Assembly (NCBI RefSeq): GCF_011392125.1 | Contig: NZ_JAAJBU010000007.1 | Span: forward strand, 1-64,000 | DNA length: 64,000 nt | Direction of reading: 5' to 3' | Origin: Flavobacterium lotistagni | Lineage (GTDB): Bacteria; Bacteroidota; Bacteroidia; Flavobacteriales; Flavobacteriaceae | Shown here: piece by piece, positions 9,321-37,351 of the stretch | Layout: the number at the start of each line of letters is the position of its first letter | Numbering within the stretch: position 1 is the stretch's first letter | Position numbers and translations under genes: made by a program | Notes under the pieces: model-generated | Database searches by the model: none | The model's input: the letters and a program-made list of their open reading frames with translations, nothing else | What the model was told of the DNA's origin: nothing

Positions 9321-12300
9321 TTAATTACTATATTTCTTACTAATTATTTGATTGTCATTTAGTTCTATAAAAAATAAAAACAATTCGTTTACATTTTTAC
9401 TCCAAACAAAATAATTAGAATTAATATTTTTTTCATCGAGTAAAAGCCTGCCGAGGGTGTCGAAAATTTTGATATTTTTCATTTTCTTAACACCGGAATT
9501 CAAAACGACTTGCTTAGCCAAATTTTTGTAAATAATTACTTCATTTTCCAGCTTAATAGCTTCGGAATTTCCTAACAATGAATTCGAGAACCGCAGCACA
9601 AAACGTGAATCAAAAACGCCGGATTCAGTGACGAAACTGTATGCACTTTCCTTTAAGTTGTGAACAACACCCAAAAGTCGGTCTTCCAAATAAACGTCTT
9701 GGGTTTCAAAAAATCCGTCAAAATCAGAAAGGTCGATTTCAAAATCTCCGGCGATTGAGGTCTTGAAGCCCAATGGAATTTGATCCTGCTCACTAAACTC
9801 AAGCGATCTTCCTTGAATCGCCAATTTCTTATTGTCTAAAATCGAATAGAAACTCGCGGAATTTCCGGCTTCTAAAGTTTCGCCATCAAAAGCGTTGTCT
9901 AAACCATCGGTTGCATTTTCAATATAACCGACCAAGATTTGTTTGTATGCGCCTTGACTGTTTTTCAATTCCAACCAGATGCGGTTGCGTTGCAAGTCGT
10001 TCTGCGTCCTGAAAAATTGCGAATTGTTGCCTACTTCGCGCATCGCATTGGTAAATGTGGCAGTAGTAGTTCCCTCGATGACGCCTTTGATCATGAAGGC
10101 TTGGCCCGCTGCAATCATTCCGTTGGGAACGGCATTGTTCAACCCTGCCGCTGAAGCACCGGTGCCCGCACCGCCAGTAAAATTGTAGGTAGCATAATCA
10201 TCAAAAGTGTATAGATTATTGGTAATCGCTGTATTGTGTGTCCAGAAATATAAGGTCGTCCCCGGATTGACTAGACCAAATGCAGCCGTATTGCCTTCAA
10301 TAAATTTTTTTGCGCTAATCGCTGACGGATAAGGATTTCCGATACAATTCAAATCGTTGCTTCCGCTTTTGACAATGCTAACCGAATAATCTCCGTTGTT
10401 GGGCTGACCGACGAAAGTACCATTAAAAACAGCGGTGGTCACTGGATCAAAATTCTGCGGCGCTCTGATGATATACCCTTTGCCAATATCCATCGGCGTT
10501 AATGCCGGAGCGGTGACTGCTTCCCAATTATAGAAAGTAGTGTTGAACCAAAAATACTTGTCTGATAATGTAAACGGTGACAAATTCGCGAGAATCTGAT
10601 AATCAACCGGAGAGGACCAGTAAGTATAATCATATTTCCGCATCGGTGTTGTATCCCTTTTATAGGTGATGTTTCCTGTGTTAGTGCCGTTATTAATTTG
10701 CACCAAACTGGCATTGTTTTCAAAAGTGACCGATCCGCCCAAAATATCCAATTGGTTCTCGATACGCAATGTGTGTCCGGAATTGATTGTGATGTTTCCA
10801 GAATTCACCTTGACCGAGCAAGCATCGACATCGCTGGCAGAACTATAGTCGCCATTGAAGACTACAGCCGTACTGCTGCTTGGAACTCCGTTAGACCAAG
10901 CCGACCCGTTCCAAGTTGTAGCGTTATAGGAAACTGTGACAACATTGCTGTAGGCGTTACAACTTCCGTTGGCTACGACTGCCCGGTAATAGCGGGTCGA
11001 GGTTAAAGTACCCATCTGAGCCGAAGTTAAGGTCGCTGAATTACTCGAAGGAATATCTACCGGAGTTGAAAAAGCGAAGTCGGACGCATATTGCCATTTG
11101 GTAACGCTATTGGTGAAACCACTCAAATTTAAATCTGTAGGAGCGCCATTACATATCGACTGATTGGGCGAAGCGGTTCCGCCCACTGCTGCCGGAGTAA
11201 CCACGTATGGACCTACAGCAGTAATTCCAGCAGTTCCACTTTTCACGGTAGAGCAAGTATTGGCGACAGTGACATAATAGTAGTAGGTTCCTACTGTGTT
11301 TGAAAGCGGAGTAAAGGTTGCGGTTTTCGAACCGTTAGCCACCTCAGCCGCAAAAGCAGCTCCTGTCAGCGCTGTTCCTCCGGTAGTAGAATTGGTGGTG
11401 TTTCGGTACCATTGGTAGACCAAAGAAGTTCCTGTAGCAGTAACAGTTACCAGACTAAAAGGCGTATTCTGACATACAGTTTCCGACCCAGACGGTTGCG
11501 GGGAAATCACTGGCGCCACATTGCGGGTAAAAGTAAAAGTAGCACTAGATTTCGGACACCCGCTGGCATCGGTATAAGAATAGGTAAAAGTGGTTGTTCC
11601 GCCCGAATAGGGGCTTCCGATACTGTAAGTTCCGCCAACCGGTGAGCCGCCTGACATGGTAAAAGCTCCTGTGGCACAAGTCGATAAATTGGTAGCGGTA
11701 ACTGTAGCCGTATTATTTTTTACAGTCACTACGGCAGCACCACTATTTCCGGTTCCTGCTACTCCATTAGCATTGGTTACCGAAACTATAGTATAAGTTC
11801 GTGTAACCGTTGGTGTAATCGAAATGTTTGCACCACTGGTATAATTATTCACAGTAAAATTGCTGACTCCATTAGTATATACAACCGTGAATGGTCCTGT
11901 TCCCCCAGTTATCGTAACGACAAGATTGGTGGACAATCCGTTGCAAATTGCCGTGGTTCCTGAAATGACCGAAGCCGTTGGTCCGGGCAAAAGCGTTCCG
12001 TTGAAGGAAACGTTGTCGAAACGCCATGTTCCCAAAGGATTGGCGACAGCCGCCGGAGTTGAAACCTGGCGAAACTGCCCCGTAGATTGATAATGCGCCG
12101 CCAAAAGCCTGATACCAAAATTGGGATTGTTATTTGCCGTTGGGATTGCACTAAAATTTACAATCGTTCTTCGGTACTCGTCACCAGTAGAGTTGGCTTC
12201 AAAACACCCATTCCCATTGATACTTCCGTTGCAGAAAGTCGTGTTTCCGGCCGTCATGTTGAATGAATTCCAAGTGGAGCCATTTGTAGTATATTGCAAT

Positions 12301-27728: not shown

Positions 27729-28904
27729 TTAAACTTTGATTTTACTTCGAGTGGCTTTTGGAACTCCCGCTTTGTTGAGCAAAATCCCGGTCGACTTTAA
27801 TTGCACAAACGCCTTAGTGACATATAAGTAACCTTTATAATCATTGGTTTCGCCCCAAGAGTTCTTCACTTTATAGTATTCTTTTCCGTTCTGGTCTTTC
27901 GCTAAACCGACAATCTGCATCGCGTGGTCATCGGTAGTGTTCAGCGAATACAACCCTTCTAGACGCAAATCTTCTGTGATTTCTTTTTCTTTAATTGGGC
28001 CGTCGAACATGGTCTTTCTTTGCTCGGGCGTGATGTTGTAAATGTCGGTATCAGGAACTTCCGCCACTCCGTTTTTCCAACTGAAATAAGGTTCAGAAAC
28101 ATCTGACGACCAAGCTACGCTGTATCCTTTAGTGAGCGCAAAGTCAATAATATCGGTGAGTTCTTTCATAGGCACATTATACACTTGGTCATAGCTCCAG
28201 TTGTCCGGCACCGGCAAAACCATTTTCTGGTAGTAAGGGTTGTCTTTGTAGGAAGAGAATTCCACGTAATCATCAGGGTTGATGCCCACCACTTCTTTGG
28301 CAAAAGCTTTTGGTGTGTAAGTTTTACCTGCGTAAGTGAACGTTTCAGGCAATTTGCCCAACTTTTCATCCATGAATTTGTTGATATTATCTACCCAAGC
28401 TGTGCCTTTGTTAGGGTTTTCGTCTTTTAGATAAGCATCGAGGATTTTCTTGAACTCCGCCTGAAATTCATCAGATTTGACTACACCTTTACCATAATCT
28501 TCCATAGTGTATGCTTGCTGTGGCATTGCTCCATATTTACGCAACATATTCATCACATCATGTGTTTCTGCACCATCGCCGAGTCCGAGGTTTCCGTTGA
28601 ACAGAATATAGTTTCTAGCTTTGCCTAAATACACATGGCGGGCCGCGTAAATTTCGGCCAAATCAACCGGCTTTTTACCGTTTTTGATCATTTCTGATTC
28701 AAGGAATGAATTGCCTGAATAACTCCAGCAAGTTCCCGCAGAGCCTTGGCTTTTGACCGAAGTGTTTTCGATATTGATGACTTCATGGAACTCGAATTTC
28801 GAATTCAAAGAAGCGTTGTTGATTACTTTTTTGATTAGTTCGTCCTGAGCGAACAAACTCATCGAACACAATATTCCTGAGAATACCAAACTCTTTTTAA
28901 TCAT
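27729..28904 (-). CDS. C1-family (papain-like) peptidase, bleomycin-hydrolase/PepC-like, exported
   Basis: 391 residues with signal peptide 1-20 (SLFAQ). Active-site motifs of papain clan: SQGSAGTCWSYS with Gln53 and nucleophile Cys59, DDHAMQIVG with His327, and VKNSWGE with Asn348. The long insert between Cys and His (GDGAETHDVMNML, GLGDG) is as in PepC/bleomycin hydrolase. Those enzymes are usually cytosolic; the signal peptide puts this one in the periplasm or outside, common in Bacteroidota. It probably trims peptides. Own promoter; upstream neighbour yaaA is in the same orientation. Confidence 0.9.
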   Translation of the reverse strand: MIKKSLVFSGILCSMSLFAQDELIKKVINNASLNSKFEFHEVINIENTSVKSQGSAGTCWSYSGNSFLESEMIKNGKKPVDLAEIYAARHVYLGKARNYILFNGNLGLGDGAETHDVMNMLRKYGAMPQQAYTMEDYGKGVVKSDEFQAEFKKILDAYLKDENPNKGTAWVDNINKFMDEKLGKLPETFTYAGKTYTPKAFAKEVVGINPDDYVEFSSYKDNPYYQKMVLPVPDNWSYDQVYNVPMKELTDIIDFALTKGYSVAWSSDVSEPYFSWKNGVAEVPDTDIYNITPEQRKTMFDGPIKEKEITEDLRLEGLYSLNTTDDHAMQIVGLAKDQNGKEYYKVKNSWGETNDYKGYLYVTKAFVQLKSTGILLNKAGVPKATRSKIKV

Positions 28905-31967: not shown

Positions 31968-34259
31968 CTATAAGCTGATACGAACAAAAATATTAGGCAT
32001 GACTCCCAGTGAATAATAATCTTGGGTTTTGTAACTTGTATTGACCACACTGCCGATGGAGGAATATTGTCTTTCATACTCACGACTGATTAAAGAACGA
32101 CGGTTATAGAGGTTATAAATGGAAAAACCAACTTTTCCAGACCATGATTTCTGCGTTCTGAACTGATAGATTGCCGATACATCCAACCGGTGATAACTCG
32201 ATAGTCGCTCGGTATTGAAAGCCGCCACTTGATTGCTTTGATTAAGCAAACTATACGGTTTTCCGCTGTGCCAAAACCAACCCGAAGTAACCGAAAAATG
32301 ATTCCATTTTTTATAAAACGAAAGGTTCAGTGCGTGGCGAATGTCTGCATTGATTGGAAAATAATCTCCGTTATTTACGGCATCGAAACGGTTTTTGGAA
32401 TCTTGGAAAGTGTAGGTCAGCCAACTGCGCCAATTAGGGGCGTTCTTCTGAATTAAAATATCAATGCCTTTGGTAAAACCTTTTCCTTGATGGATTTGTG
32501 AATCGAATTGGTTCAAAAATCCAAAAGTGAGCGAAGTAATTCCGTGAGCGATTTTATAATAGGTTTCCAAATCAAAAACCCACGAATTTTTCTTGTAAAT
32601 CAGTCCGGTCGTGAATTGATGCGCTCGCTGGATTGGATAATTTTCCTTATCGGCAAGCACCCAAAGGTAATTCTCCAAACTCAAATCGTTGGCCACACTT
32701 TCGCGCACTTGGCTCATGATTTGGCTCTTGCGTTCGTAGGAAGTTTGCCAAAATAAGCCATTGGTTATGGTTCTTTGCACAAAAACTCTAGGCTCAAAAC
32801 TATCGGCTTTCAAAGCACTAAAATAATTGTAACGCGTGCCGGCTTGAAAGCTCCATTTCTGAGGTTGATACTGCCAAAAAACATAACCAGAATGCGTCAC
32901 ATTGAAGAAATGTTTCAAGTCGAGGGTAATACTCAAATCTTGGCTTTGGCTCACAAAGGAATGCGAAACATCATTACCTGAAAGCACGTAACCCAATTCA
33001 AAATTCATTTGGTCATTGTACTTAAATTTTAAACGGGTTTCCATACCTGAATCGGTCACGCGATTGAGTTTCTGGAACAATTCAAAAGTGTCAGCTGTTT
33101 TGTCGGTTCGGTCTTTATATTCAAAAGTATAACCCGAATAATGCAAAAGTGTTTCTTGTTTTAAACGTTTACCATATTGTTGTTTCCAATGAAAAGCGAA
33201 GCCCTGATTATCAATGCGCATTTTCTGGTTTTGTGTCTGATTGTTAGGAATCGACGTCGAAAAATCAAGGTTATTATCGATCCAAATACTAGTGAAAGAG
33301 AACTCGGTTTTCTCGGCCGCTTTCCATAACAATCTCGCCGAATAATCGGTAAAGCGAAATTTGTTCTGATCATCAAAATCATCAAAGTCGGTATGCTGGA
33401 AAACTTTGTCTGCCAAAGCATCGAAAGTAGCGGTCTGAAGCCATTCAGTAAACGACTTCCTGCCTGAAAGTTCTAGGCTCAACTTACTTTTAATTACTGG
33501 CGCTTTGAGATAAATATCGGCGTTGAGTGCATTGATTCCTGCATCAACTTTCCACTGGCCATCTGCTTTTCCATAGGGCTGAATATCGATGACACTCGAA
33601 ATTCTTTCGCCAAATTTGGGATGTGTGCCTTGGTTCTGATAATTCACTATTTGCGGTACATTAGGATTGAAACCGGAAATCATCCCAAACAAATGCCCCG
33701 GATGATACATGCGAATTCCATCCCACAAAATCAAGTTTTGATCAGATGTTCCTCCACGAATATACAAGCCACTTGCGGTTTCGTTCGGACTTTTCACACC
33801 GGGTAATTGTTGCAAGGAAAGCAGTAAATCGGTATCAGTAACGCCTGGAAGAGCTTCAATTTTCTGCGGCATTAAAGTGATTTGTTGGTCATTTTTATTA
33901 ATGCCTTTAGAGAGTAAAACTTCAATTAAGATTTCCTTGAGTGGTTCGCCTGTAACTGGAGGTTCATCCGGTAGCGAAACCGAAAAATAACGCGAATTGA
34001 TTGGAGTAATTTTTAGCAATGCTTGATTTTCTATAGCATTATTAACAGCTTCTAAAGTATAATTACCTTCCGCCAACGCAATGGTCTTGGGAGCTACTAT
34101 GCTGTCAATATACGAATACTTCACCTCAAATTTAGTTTCAATAACTGCCAAAACTTGGCTTAATGGCGTATTGTTGAAAGTAAAAAACGACCGATGGCTT
34201 TTCTGTGACCAGCCCATCGTAGCGTAGAAAAATAAAATCAACAATACTACAGATCTCAT
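31968..34259 (-). CDS. TonB-dependent receptor with N-terminal STN signalling domain
   Basis: 763 residues. Signal peptide 1-18 (GWSQ). Residues about 20-100 form an STN (secretin/TonB short N-terminal) domain (NNTPLSQVLAVIETKFEVKYSY, NYTLEAVNNAIENQALL), which in FecA-type receptors touches the FecR regulator. Plug domain follows (ALPGVTDTDLLLSLQQLPGV, LYIRGGTSDQNLILWDG, HLFGMISGFNPNVPQ), then the barrel. Its ATG overlaps the FecR stop by 4 nt, the third gene of sigma-FecR-receptor. A transducing receptor; the ligand is unknown. Confidence 0.92.
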   Translation of the reverse strand: MRSVVLLILFFYATMGWSQKSHRSFFTFNNTPLSQVLAVIETKFEVKYSYIDSIVAPKTIALAEGNYTLEAVNNAIENQALLKITPINSRYFSVSLPDEPPVTGEPLKEILIEVLLSKGINKNDQQITLMPQKIEALPGVTDTDLLLSLQQLPGVKSPNETASGLYIRGGTSDQNLILWDGIRMYHPGHLFGMISGFNPNVPQIVNYQNQGTHPKFGERISSVIDIQPYGKADGQWKVDAGINALNADIYLKAPVIKSKLSLELSGRKSFTEWLQTATFDALADKVFQHTDFDDFDDQNKFRFTDYSARLLWKAAEKTEFSFTSIWIDNNLDFSTSIPNNQTQNQKMRIDNQGFAFHWKQQYGKRLKQETLLHYSGYTFEYKDRTDKTADTFELFQKLNRVTDSGMETRLKFKYNDQMNFELGYVLSGNDVSHSFVSQSQDLSITLDLKHFFNVTHSGYVFWQYQPQKWSFQAGTRYNYFSALKADSFEPRVFVQRTITNGLFWQTSYERKSQIMSQVRESVANDLSLENYLWVLADKENYPIQRAHQFTTGLIYKKNSWVFDLETYYKIAHGITSLTFGFLNQFDSQIHQGKGFTKGIDILIQKNAPNWRSWLTYTFQDSKNRFDAVNNGDYFPINADIRHALNLSFYKKWNHFSVTSGWFWHSGKPYSLLNQSNQVAAFNTERLSSYHRLDVSAIYQFRTQKSWSGKVGFSIYNLYNRRSLISREYERQYSSIGSVVNTSYKTQDYYSLGVMPNIFVRISL

Positions 34260-35182
34260 TCTGAAATGTGGATGGTTTCGGAATTGGTTTGTTCAAATTT
34301 TAATTGCAGCGGTAAACAAATTGATTGCAATGCCACTTGCCAATTGTCATTGGTGAAACTTCCGGTAAATCGGACATTGGCTAAAGATTTCGGAAAGCCT
34401 ACTTTGTAATGATATTGGCTTTCGAATTGGGCAATAACAGCTTGCATTGGTGCATTTTTAAAAGAAGTTTCGCCGTCAATCCAACTGGATTTAGTGTGGG
34501 TTAGGTCTTGCCAAGTTTCGGCTGTTTGATTGAAAAATCGAAGTGATTCTCCATGGGTTAAAACCTTTGTTGCGGTAGAAGTAGTGACGCTCACTTTGCC
34601 TTCAAAACAGTGCACTTCGAGGAAATCTTTTTGCACTAAAACGTCGAATTGCGTGCCGAGTACTTGTACTTTTCCTTGAGCGGTTTCTACCGTAAATGTA
34701 CTGCCTTTAGCCACCTTAAAATAAGCTTGCCCACAGAGTTTTAGATTGCGGTTATAACTAAAAAAAGTAGGATAACTGACGCTTGAATTTGCGTTTAAAA
34801 CCACTTCAGAGCCATCGGTCAAAACTAAAGTTTGCTGTTTTCCGTAACTGGTTTGAACAGTATTTGAGAAGGCCAACAAATGATACAAGCCGAAAAGCAC
34901 AAGTAGTGCAGCCGCTAGAGAAGTATACACATAAAGTCTGCGAACTTTCGATTGCTGCTGCGTCTTTAAAGCGATTTTATCTTGAATAGCATTGAAATTT
35001 CGGTCCAAATCGGGTGGGCCCAAATCGATGGATTGCAATGAAAACCGAAGTTTCCGATAAGCATTAAAATCACTTTCAGTCACGAATTGAAGCAACTCTT
35101 CATCGGTGATTTTACCCGAAAGCCAATCAGACAAATAGGTTTCTTGGTGGTTATCTGGTGTCTTTTTCATCATAAATCTCAT
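34256..35182 (-). CDS. FecR-family anti-sigma factor
   Basis: 308 residues; ATG 35182 overlaps the sigma stop as TAATG, with ATGs 3 and 4 codons later as alternatives. Cytoplasmic N-terminus (about 1-78), one membrane segment (LYVYTSLAAALLVLFGLYHLL, about 82-102), periplasmic FecR domain (TLVLTDGSEVVLNANSSVSYP ... GQAYFKVAKGSTFTVETAQGKVQVLGTQFDV) and a C-terminal DUF4974-like domain (FKNAPMQAVIAQFESQYHYKVGF). It passes the receptor signal to the sigma factor. Confidence 0.92.
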   Translation of the reverse strand: MRFMMKKTPDNHQETYLSDWLSGKITDEELLQFVTESDFNAYRKLRFSLQSIDLGPPDLDRNFNAIQDKIALKTQQQSKVRRLYVYTSLAAALLVLFGLYHLLAFSNTVQTSYGKQQTLVLTDGSEVVLNANSSVSYPTFFSYNRNLKLCGQAYFKVAKGSTFTVETAQGKVQVLGTQFDVLVQKDFLEVHCFEGKVSVTTSTATKVLTHGESLRFFNQTAETWQDLTHTKSSWIDGETSFKNAPMQAVIAQFESQYHYKVGFPKSLANVRFTGSFTNDNWQVALQSICLPLQLKFEQTNSETIHISE

Positions 35183-35709
35183 TAAACATTTTTGACCACT
35201 TTTCTTAGTGAAAGCAAGGCCAGATGCATTCTTTTCTCTACAGCTTTAACAGACAAATCAAGCAAAGTAGCAATCTCGGCGTAAGTATGGTTCTCGAATC
35301 GGTTCATTAAAAATACGGTGCGTTGTTTCTCGGGTAATTCGTTGATGGCCTTTTCAAGTTCTTTTTTAAGTTCGGCCTCAACCAGCAAAAATTCGGGCGA
35401 TTCTTCATGCGTTGCTTTGGGTTTGGATTGCTGCTCGAAATTCAGTACTACTTTATCGTGTTTGATGTGATTGAGTGAAAGTCGAATAGCTGTTGTGAAA
35501 AGAAAACTTTTGGCTTGTTCAGGTTGGAGCATACCGCAATTTTCCCATAAAATAACGAAAGCGTTCTGAGCCACATCTTCTGCCCTATCGATGTCTTTGA
35601 ATTTATACGCTAGAAAATTCCGAAGCAATTTGAAATGTGCATCGAATACCGATCGAAAGACGGTTTCAGAACACAAACAAGGCACAGATTTGCTATCGTT
35701 TTGACTCAT
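35182..35709 (-). CDS. ECF-type RNA polymerase sigma factor
   Basis: 175 residues. Region 2 at about 15-85 (HFKLLRNFLAYKFKDIDRAEDVAQNAFVILWEN), region 4 at about 115-172 (AINELPEKQRTVFLMNRFENHTYAEIATLLDLSVKAVEKRMHLAL). FecI-like ECF sigma. First gene of an overlapping three-gene set with FecR and the STN-receptor, so it should direct their transcription and perhaps that of the Kazal lipoprotein just upstream. N-terminal SVPCLC Cys pair is unusual. Confidence 0.92.
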   Translation of the reverse strand: MSQNDSKSVPCLCSETVFRSVFDAHFKLLRNFLAYKFKDIDRAEDVAQNAFVILWENCGMLQPEQAKSFLFTTAIRLSLNHIKHDKVVLNFEQQSKPKATHEESPEFLLVEAELKKELEKAINELPEKQRTVFLMNRFENHTYAEIATLLDLSVKAVEKRMHLALLSLRKVVKNV

Positions 35710-35728
35710 ACTCTTTTAAAAATTGTTA

Positions 35729-35757
35729 CCACATACCCTTGCTTAAAGAATATGTGG
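35729..35757 (-). terminator. Hairpin between the Kazal lipoprotein and sigma genes
   Basis: CCACATA (35729-35735) pairs with TATGTGG (35751-35757), 15-nt loop; on the minus strand TAACAATTTTT follows. Could be a weak terminator or a leader structure of the sigma gene. Confidence 0.5.
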
Positions 35758-35802
35758 CAACAAAAAACTAACTAGCTTCTTTTTCAATAATTATTTAACC
35801 CT

Positions 35803-37254
35803 TTATGGACAAGAAAGTTCAATTTGACTTTGAAAAGCGGCCTGATTGGCAAACGTGTATACCGAATTTCCAAACGTTGCCGTAATCGGATATGACATCG
35901 CTGGCATAATGGGTTGATTCACCGGATTCCAATATTGAAGCAATTCACCGTTATTGTTCACCGTAACCAAAGCACCTTGATATTGCACATTCACTGGATA
36001 AACGATATTGAAGCAATTACCCAACAGCTCACCAAAATTGGGTGCCGGACAAGTCACAAAATCATTTTGGGTAAATCCTTCGCATTGGGCCCAGCAAGCA
36101 TTGTCGAATTGTCTGATACCAACCGGAGTTTGCACACATACTGGGTTATAATCTGTCGGACAAGTACAAATACCGTTGCAATTCGGTTTGATCCAATTGG
36201 CGATGGCTGAGCAATTCGCACCGATTCTGATTTGGCAGTTGTCATTCGGAATTGTTGTAAGCGAATACGGGAAATTCGGGATAGTTACCGGCAGCGAAGC
36301 AATTGAGTATGTACCCAAGAGTTCATTCCCGCTAGTAAATACTTGGAAGTTTGGAGCGGTTGGGTTTACTGAATCAAAGTCAATAGTCAATTCGTAAGTA
36401 CCATTAGCACTACAAGCGCCTGGAGTAGCCACGACATTGGTAATACTACAATCGCCACTTCCGTTGCAAGAAATGAAATCATTCTGAGTGAAACCGGCAC
36501 ACATCGCATAACATGTATTAGCGAATTCCACAATTCCTGTAGGCGTTTGTACGCAAACCGGAACGTACTCTTGAGTACAGATGCAATTATTGTCATTACA
36601 GTCATTTACAGCATTGTAAAAATCATATATGCTATTGAGCACTATGGTTTGATTTTGATTGACAATAGTAATTGGGAACACAATATTGGCTTCGGTAGTG
36701 GCCGGATTGTTCAAATAAGCATTGAGTTCTTCCTGAGAATTAATAGTAACAGATTGCCCGTTAGCTACTGCTGTTATTGGAAAAACAATATCAAAACAAT
36801 AGGTGTGTTGCAAATCATCATCAAAAGTAGGTAGTCCGCATTGGATAATGAGTGCAATCAAATCGGCCTCATCGTTAATGGTTTGCACCGCACCACCGTA
36901 TTGCACCTGAAAAGGAAAAACCACAGCCGTTAAATGCAAAGCCGGAGATTCGTTGTTAAGAATTTCAAGCAAACCCTCTAAACTCGACGCTGTAATAAGT
37001 GTGCCGTTGTTGTAAGCGAAAGTAATCGGAAACACAAACTCGAAACACAGCATCGGATTCGCTGAATCAGCATTGACTTGCGCACTTCTGTTCGGCCCAA
37101 CAGTATTTTCTAATTTTAATTTGTTCAGTACGGTGCGCATGGCTGTACTTTCCACAGCAGCATCTGAACTTACAATCGATTTCTCATCGGAACACGAATA
37201 AAAAGTAACCGCAGAGAAAACAACGAGTAAAAGCAAGGTTTTAATGGTTTTCAT
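35803..37254 (-). CDS. Repeat lipoprotein with two Kazal-like domains
   Basis: 483 residues from ATG 37254; an ATG 8 codons earlier (37278) leaves a poorer signal. Lipobox FYSC, Cys about 21. Layout: four repeats of about 38 residues with the core (C)F-x-IVFPIT...G..VTINS.EEL...L, then Kazal-like domain 1 (CICTQEYVPVC...NTCYAMC), a 100-residue Cys-containing linker, Kazal-like domain 2 (CTCPTDYNPVC...NACWAQC), then two more FPIT repeats (CFNIVYPVNV, MSYPITATFG). Kazal domains are serine-protease inhibitors. The lipoprotein is probably on the outer membrane and may guard against host or competitor proteases. Directly upstream of the sigma/FecR/receptor genes. Confidence 0.82.
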   Translation of the reverse strand: MKTIKTLLLLVVFSAVTFYSCSDEKSIVSSDAAVESTAMRTVLNKLKLENTVGPNRSAQVNADSANPMLCFEFVFPITFAYNNGTLITASSLEGLLEILNNESPALHLTAVVFPFQVQYGGAVQTINDEADLIALIIQCGLPTFDDDLQHTYCFDIVFPITAVANGQSVTINSQEELNAYLNNPATTEANIVFPITIVNQNQTIVLNSIYDFYNAVNDCNDNNCICTQEYVPVCVQTPTGIVEFANTCYAMCAGFTQNDFISCNGSGDCSITNVVATPGACSANGTYELTIDFDSVNPTAPNFQVFTSGNELLGTYSIASLPVTIPNFPYSLTTIPNDNCQIRIGANCSAIANWIKPNCNGICTCPTDYNPVCVQTPVGIRQFDNACWAQCEGFTQNDFVTCPAPNFGELLGNCFNIVYPVNVQYQGALVTVNNNGELLQYWNPVNQPIMPAMSYPITATFGNSVYTFANQAAFQSQIELSCP

Positions 37255-37351
37255 ATCAATTTGATTTTTAAGTTTCATAGTTTAGACAACCCAACTTGAG
37301 GCCACCCTACTTTTTTGAAAAACTTTTTCACTAAGATATTGAAAAACAAAA

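Follow-up and report, generated by a model that had tools for sequence, protein, structure and literature searches.

A lipoprotein of 483 amino acids, encoded on the minus strand of Flavobacterium lotistagni contig NZ_JAAJBU010000007.1 (positions 35803 to 37254 of the first 64,000 nucleotides, the stretch that we analyzed and refer to as the window), is, in a reading of the sequence that we favor with modest confidence, a dedicated surface partner of a cell-surface signaling system and also a main target of that system's sigma factor. The protein, delineated from its open reading frame (ORF) and sequence, combines two Kazal domains with repeats of about 32 residues, here called FP repeats. Its gene is followed on the minus strand by genes for an extracytoplasmic function (ECF) sigma factor (35182 to 35709), a FecR-type anti-sigma factor (34256 to 35182), and a TonB-dependent receptor/transducer (31968 to 34259). 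At the sequence level, FP lipoprotein genes adjoin sigma, FecR, and TonB receptor genes across the host family, Flavobacteriaceae, and a promoter of fixed spacing precedes most of the FP genes examined. In the window and the clade of Kazal-bearing systems to which it belongs, that promoter is followed on a single strand by the lipoprotein, sigma, FecR, and receptor genes in this order, and a hairpin precedes the sigma gene. A preliminary description of this DNA had given the coordinates 35182 to 37254, which include the lipoprotein gene but also span the sigma gene, and had claimed a complete signaling set beside the lipoprotein; sigma factor, FecR, and TonB receptor have all been matched.

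The linkage was examined in 60 loci, hand-picked from the best-scoring listed matches to a profile (A2) of the first four FP repeats, about one per genus, plus the second locus of the host's own genome (3.34 Mb in 51 contigs). Members with and without Kazal domains went into the A2 profile. An ECF sigma, FecR, and TonB receptor set lies beside the FP gene in 59 of the 60 loci, a count that includes L085, where other ORFs intervene, and L089, where an overlapping start mimics convergence. In the sole exception (L129), the FP gene is about 0.8 kb from a contig end. Conservation of the pair in other genomes had been proposed earlier as a check, and the linkage is indeed kept there. Across 85 loci, sigma, FecR, and receptor genes are adjacent to 83 of 90 FP genes, of which 69 are divergent, 13 are on the same strand, and 1 (L089) is divergent but was called convergent for its overlapping start. 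The other seven are the second copy in L041 and the genes of L032 (a sigma gene alone, where the contig ends), L038 (with FecR and receptor, but without a sigma ORF among those picked), L045 (contig end), L046 (followed by masked bases), L048, and L129. Eighteen of 20 further loci carry the set (exceptions, L158 and L169), and the further linked loci include four in other families of the class (L153 to L156) and one in another family of the order. The 60-locus sample leans toward full-length FP proteins, and 40 relatives not chosen by an FP match provide a less selected check: 14 of their 15 full-length FP genes (E below 1e-30) are within 3 kb of a FecR gene, as judged from coordinates compared by hand, the one exception being that of G001. 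From the receptor side, a search with a Kazal-clade profile found an FP gene upstream in 29 of 33 named loci (partly from the same genomes). Three of the other four (L195, L198, and L202) are cut by a contig end, and L208 has no FP gene. Between the FP and receptor genes, sigma in L203 and both sigma and FecR in L207 were not detected; in both loci, the simple ORF picking used placed a reverse ORF at that position. F. aquatile (L197) is one Flavobacterium that carries the system. In the host's own genome, each of the two FecR genes is paired with one of the two full-length FP lipoprotein genes. Its second locus (L089:5658-10784) encodes a non-Kazal FP lipoprotein divergent from its own sigma-FecR-receptor set, and the promoter consensus precedes the lipoprotein gene.

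The promoter is the second line of evidence. The consensus upstream of FP genes is GTAGGGT, 15 bases, and TGTYTWA, and the window has the match GTAGGGT-N15-TGTCTAA 5′ of the lipoprotein gene (37282 to 37310, minus strand). The core TAGGG-N16-TGTY is present in 60 of 89 FP upstream regions, compared to a mean of 0.15 and a maximum of 2 in 100 first-order shuffles and to 1 on the other strand. When spacings from 10 to 25 were scanned, a spacing of 16 was found in 60 regions, 13 in 8, 21 in 6, 12 in 2, and all others in none. In the host's own genome, the full consensus occurs at exactly two sites, both 5′ of FP lipoprotein genes. Allowing one mismatch gives 11 sites versus 6 in a backwards control, and, therefore, single-mismatch sites are hardly informative. 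A shorter form of the promoter has four exact sites versus none in the control: two at FP genes, one roughly 5 kb away from the second locus, and one upstream of an operon of efflux type. We infer that the neighboring sigma factor reads the FP-gene promoter. The position of the promoter also bears on the start of the lipoprotein, as the alternative start at 37278 sits just 3 bases from the predicted −10 element, and the start at 37254 is therefore favored. Elsewhere in the host's genome, a one-mismatch site precedes a run of small genes (L089:1108-4671; by eye, ankyrin-like and YceI-like) that may be another target of the sigma factor. A match to the short pattern (L134:10932-10958, minus strand), before a large gene of RND efflux type (by eye), lacks the near-invariant −10 A and is probably due to chance.

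All 17 close homologs that were aligned retain repeats 1 to 4 and the first Kazal domain, while the linker (missing in 10 of the 17), the second Kazal domain, and repeats 5 and 6 are each absent from some of them. Among 110 FP genes, the 14 Kazal-bearing genes with a sigma gene nearby are all on the sigma strand, none of the 83 opposite-strand genes has a Kazal motif, one same-strand gene lacks it (L169, another arrangement), and 12 genes lack a sigma gene within 1.5 kb (4 of these 12 bear Kazal). In L199, too, an FP gene on the sigma strand is devoid of Kazal. In other families of the class, L154 to L156 encode FP-only proteins of 218 to 233 amino acids that retain the linkage to the signaling set. 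Judged from these sequences, the conserved core is the FP-repeat module and not the Kazal domain. The earlier claim that the lipoprotein and the signaling set are paired thus stands, but not its premise that the Kazal domains are the reason for the link: we reject that premise because all 83 opposite-strand FP genes are linked without a Kazal motif and FP-only proteins keep the linkage too.

The Kazal-type systems (14 of 95 sets) group together as a single clade in each of the four protein trees, with support of 1.0 for FP, 0.80 for sigma, 0.99 for FecR, and 1.0 for the receptor. Given the linkage across contexts, the common promoter element, and the matching trees, the lipoprotein and the signaling set appear to belong together. 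In this clade, the lipoprotein gene is upstream on the sigma strand, and a hairpin lies in between. The window's hairpin (35723 to 35763, minus strand) has 18 base pairs followed by a short U run and a folding energy of −22.8 kcal/mol (z of −6.5). A hairpin was found in all 14 same-strand gaps between lipoprotein and sigma genes that were tested (z of −3.7 to −6.1, somewhat flattered because the best 60-base stretch was taken per gap), and none of 59 divergent sigma leaders, in which one fixed stretch served as the control, reaches a z of −3. L038 and L085, which have no adjacent sigma ORF, are outside this test. At a fixed distance, the hairpin was recovered in 9 of 15 same-strand loci, the misses being five in which the sigma start was called too far upstream, plus L169. 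RNAalifold on a MAFFT alignment of the region gave a weak consensus, with four rows shifted. The hairpin may act as an attenuator or a processing site.

FP lipoproteins form a large family. The A2 profile matches 284 of 397 genomes and 183 of 237 genera of the host family. It matches 22 of 148 genomes in an order-wide draw and 30 of 296 in a phylum-wide draw, with 26 of the latter in the host family. Among 20 profile members scanned at E of 0.01, the Pfam families that are hit at all (PB1 and Rad1) are each hit by a single member, and the only common NCBIfam match is PG1828, in the signal peptide region of three members; hence, as far as could be found, the family has no Pfam or NCBIfam model. 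A scan of named genomes with the lipoprotein alone returned 11 stretches, none of which was confirmed. In the titles and abstract openings of openly licensed literature, a Kazal lipoprotein of Flavobacterium was not found, nor, among the matches listed, did we recognize an FP-type lipoprotein beside FecR. Several members depart from the common layout. In L047:5396-6763, the FP module is fused to a LamG-like domain (Laminin_G_3, E of 1.2e-19), and L170:6155-7153, beside a sigma-FecR-receptor set, encodes a protein made mostly of FP-like repeats, which suggests that repeat number is variable. Partial FP proteins of 432 to 439 amino acids in L174:6507-9949 and L175:5940-9332 are followed by a weakly similar sigma gene and a protein of 489 to 531 amino acids, possibly a sigma system of a different type; in G011 and G008, partial FP matches precede a weakly similar sigma gene.

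The layout given in the preliminary description (four repeats, Kazal, linker, Kazal, and two repeats) is confirmed. On the minus strand, a signal peptide and lipobox (FYS-C) followed by SDEKS (37192 to 37254) precede repeats 1 to 4 (36598 to 37047, within residues 70 to 219), the conserved module in which an AlphaFold model and the A2 alignment place a beta-beta-beta-alpha unit in each repeat. The first Kazal domain (36466 to 36585, residues 224 to 263), the linker (36172 to 36456, residues 267 to 361), the second Kazal domain (36049 to 36168, residues 363 to 402), and repeats 5 and 6 (35806 to 36012, within residues 415 to 483; A2 profile E of 2.2e-9) follow. The linker, previously described as cysteine rich, does have five cysteines but is better described by its seven predicted strands, and its fold is probably a sandwich. 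Because the predicted template modeling score (pTM) of the whole-protein model is 0.43, the arrangement of the domains is unreliable. A fold search with that model gave nothing at E of 0.001 or better, its top rows being diffuse or beta-sandwich proteins. The FP module alone is predicted well (AlphaFold; predicted local distance difference test score of 84, pTM of 0.73). Structural searches with it gave no convincing match (Foldseek best E of 0.88; VIA Z of at most 3.1), which does not establish a new fold. In the PDB, the FP profile hit mostly tau fragments over a short stretch (best E of 7.1e-5), which we took as chance. The C-terminal parts of several relatives looked lipocalin-like by eye; this impression had no Pfam support for L049 and L053 and was not used. 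The residues after the lipobox cysteine, polar and then acidic at +2 to +6, follow the pattern of the Bacteroidota lipoprotein export signal, for which one published study gives the consensus sequences QKDDE and SDDFE (PMC5080379). These residues suggest that the lipoprotein is exposed on the cell surface.

A Pfam scan of the whole window lipoprotein matched no family at E of 1, hence neither Kazal nor SusD. The first Kazal domain matches Kazal_1 at E of 1.4 with flanks and 0.34 on its own, both below the curated cutoff. Homologs do better: the whole L043 protein matches Kazal_2 at E of 2.9e-4 (21.3 bits; cutoff, 22.8), and of 19 single Kazal copies, 8 match Kazal_1 and 2 match Kazal_2 at E of 1 or better (best, 1.1e-5). 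When these 19 copies were combined into a profile, it retrieved 13 PDB sequences at E of 0.1 or better (best, 1y1c, E of 1.5e-5), all of them named as or known to be Kazal-type inhibitors. Six cysteines in the Kazal order are invariant in all 19 copies; the spacing is C-x-C-x7-C-x13-C-x3-C-x10-C. With homologs used in this way, we regard the Kazal identity as firm, and the PDB matches and the cysteine order bear out the earlier call. The reactive loop of the first domain (CTQEYVPVC, P1 Gln) parallels CTMQYDPVC of the solved elastase inhibitor 1y1c, which comes from a sea anemone; that of the second is CPTDYNPVC (P1 Thr). With P1 taken as the second residue after C2, Lys or Arg occupies it in none of 24 reactive sites and in none of 43 in a second set (partly from the same genomes), where the pattern reads out of register at 1 and 3 sites, respectively. 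At sites in register, P1 is Q, T, A, E, D, L, P, or Y. Because no reactive site has Lys or Arg at P1, trypsin-type inhibition is unlikely. The domains would be disulfide-stabilized binding heads and possibly inhibitors of non-trypsin proteases, such as those of elastase, subtilisin, or Glu-specific type. L041 has an additional Kazal lipoprotein gene (10399-11217), which is shorter, lacks the promoter motif, and comes immediately after the receptor gene.

The assignments of the other three proteins rest on Pfam and NCBIfam. The sigma factor matches Sigma70_r4_2 (E of 2.2e-18) and Sigma70_r2, both over the cutoffs, and falls just below that of TIGR02985 (E of 8.9e-36; 123.5 bits versus 126.4). 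The anti-sigma factor matches FecR (E of 1.8e-18) and FecR_C (E of 2.9e-10). In the receptor, Plug scores 25.3 bits, over its cutoff; the barrel is matched in the homolog L036 (E of 9e-16) and not in the window copy, and a profile of 13 receptors found nothing in the PDB at E of 0.001. Three divergent-type receptors (840 to 844 residues) have a carboxypeptidase-regulatory-like match below the cutoff, which is absent from the two Kazal-type receptors scanned. The receptor N terminus has no STN match, and the PDB profile search returned no STN protein. N termini of 10 of 17 receptors match FecR_C (best E of 5.3e-5; window, 0.0044), a domain that we take to be equivalent to the C-terminal subdomain of the anti-sigma factor PupR. 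According to one recent article, that subdomain resembles STN, and in Pseudomonas the signaling domain of the transducer shields the anti-sigma factor until a signal arrives (PMC11637429). Given the FecR_C matches and this likeness, an N-terminal signaling domain in the receptor is likely but not proven. A few genes from the locus, the window also contains a gene for what looks by eye like a papain-like C1 peptidase (27729 to 28904), a homolog of which is likewise a few genes away in L031 and L055.

In the mechanism that we propose, the lipoprotein would be flipped to the outer face of the outer membrane, where its FP module would touch the receptor and its C-terminal module (Kazal and sandwich here, LamG or others elsewhere) would offer a ligand-binding surface. 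A bound ligand would alter the N-terminal signaling domain of the receptor; FecR would then be degraded, and the freed sigma factor would transcribe the lipoprotein operon in a positive feedback, with the hairpin keeping sigma output below that of the lipoprotein. It is conceivable, but in our estimation rather unlikely, that what the receptor senses is a separate solute and that the lipoprotein, as a regulated product such as a coat, scavenger, or adhesin, has no part in sensing. The promoter data make the lipoprotein a likely sigma target and nothing beyond that, the variable C-terminal modules would fit an effector, and an FP gene is missing from the neighborhood of most FecR genes in relatives. 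Two observations lead us to prefer a co-receptor with feedback to a simple output. The gene keeps its place next to the set in 59 of the 60 sampled loci, whichever strand it is on, and of the three FP pairings compared, that of the FP and receptor trees shows the best agreement (r of 0.85, versus 0.74 for FecR and 0.60 for sigma), although these correlations partly mirror species history. Several further observations weigh against the co-receptor. The exact core is missing from 29 of the 89 upstream regions, many of which show weaker variants by eye. The core motif 5′ of 47 of 81 FecR genes and the two or more acidic residues at +2 to +6 in 92 of 110 relatives speak for the co-receptor, but both counts were made without a control. 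In the 40 relatives, 63 of 77 FecR genes have no full-length FP gene nearby, and, therefore, such signaling sets often work without one; L208 has the set and no FP gene. Conversely, FP genes occur without the set in L158, L048, and L173 (G001, a genome with no FecR match), the last of which (L173:5683-6777) may have lost the signaling set and kept the lipoprotein. Finally, the loci are related, so the counts are not independent. The lipoprotein could be only an output.

Protease sensing, as proposed in the preliminary description, would mean that a serine protease from outside the cell is bound by the Kazal domains and reported by the receptor. The Kazal fold, its intact cysteines, and the P2 Thr and P2′ Tyr in the loop of the first domain, closest to the solved elastase inhibitor, speak for such a trap; however, the Kazal domain is missing in all 83 opposite-strand systems and in the same-strand FP protein of L199, and P1 is never Lys or Arg. 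We consider this role improbable: protease sensing by the lipoprotein is possible but unsupported. TonB receptors with surface lipoproteins are the usual architecture for import in Bacteroidota, and the lipoprotein might accordingly be a SusD-like lid that loads substrate into the receptor, with signaling secondary. This is very unlikely in view of the absence of any Pfam match, SusD included, and of a gene position on the sigma side, usually divergent and not beside the receptor. That the neighborhood has no functional meaning and reflects chance or ancestral gene order is hardly credible: ffh- and folD-like neighbors (by eye) do recur in several divergent loci, but the linkage persists through differing contexts, strand changes, and within-genome paralogy, and the promoter remains fixed.

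Linkage and promoter tie a widespread lipoprotein family, for which neither Pfam nor NCBIfam has a model, to TonB-dependent signaling, so that a single gene gives access to tests of what a whole group of ECF/FecR systems in the host family responds to and by what logic. The system also supplies a defined ECF-type promoter and a well-supported bacterial case of a Kazal domain. As a tentative extension, which we hold with more doubt than belief, FP lipoproteins could be a general class of exchangeable outer-surface sensor subunits, whose constant repeat module would plug into a TonB-dependent transducer while lineages swap the outer head. If so, a swap of the head (Kazal, LamG, other beta domains, or none) would change what the sigma factor listens to, and surface signaling would be gated by a cell-anchored protein and not by a diffusible siderophore.

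TonB-dependent signaling is best known for iron carriers and glycans. FecI-FecR-FecA and FoxA-type systems likewise encode these three proteins side by side, the anti-sigma factor having FecR and FecR_C domains, and the promoter motif suggests autoregulation here too. In contrast to those systems, the ones described here almost always include an additional gene, that of the FP lipoprotein, which is also the sigma target with the best support; no siderophore or heme genes were noticed among the neighbors looked at, in the course of work that included no search aimed at them. SusC-SusD pairs, some of which are under ECF/FecR regulation, are similar in having a TonB receptor and a lipoprotein with an export-like signal. 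Unlike them, the lipoprotein here has no SusD Pfam match, consists of repeats of about 32 residues with exchangeable C-terminal modules, and is encoded on the sigma side. With the non-classical Kazal inhibitors (1y1c, leech tryptase inhibitor, and infestin), the bacterial domains have in common the cysteine order, the PVC and N-x-C core, and the register of the reactive loop; they differ in three extra residues between C3 and C4 in alignments, in a P1 that is never Lys or Arg, and in being embedded in a bacterial lipoprotein. Signaling sets of ECF sigma factor, FecR, and TonB receptor are already known.

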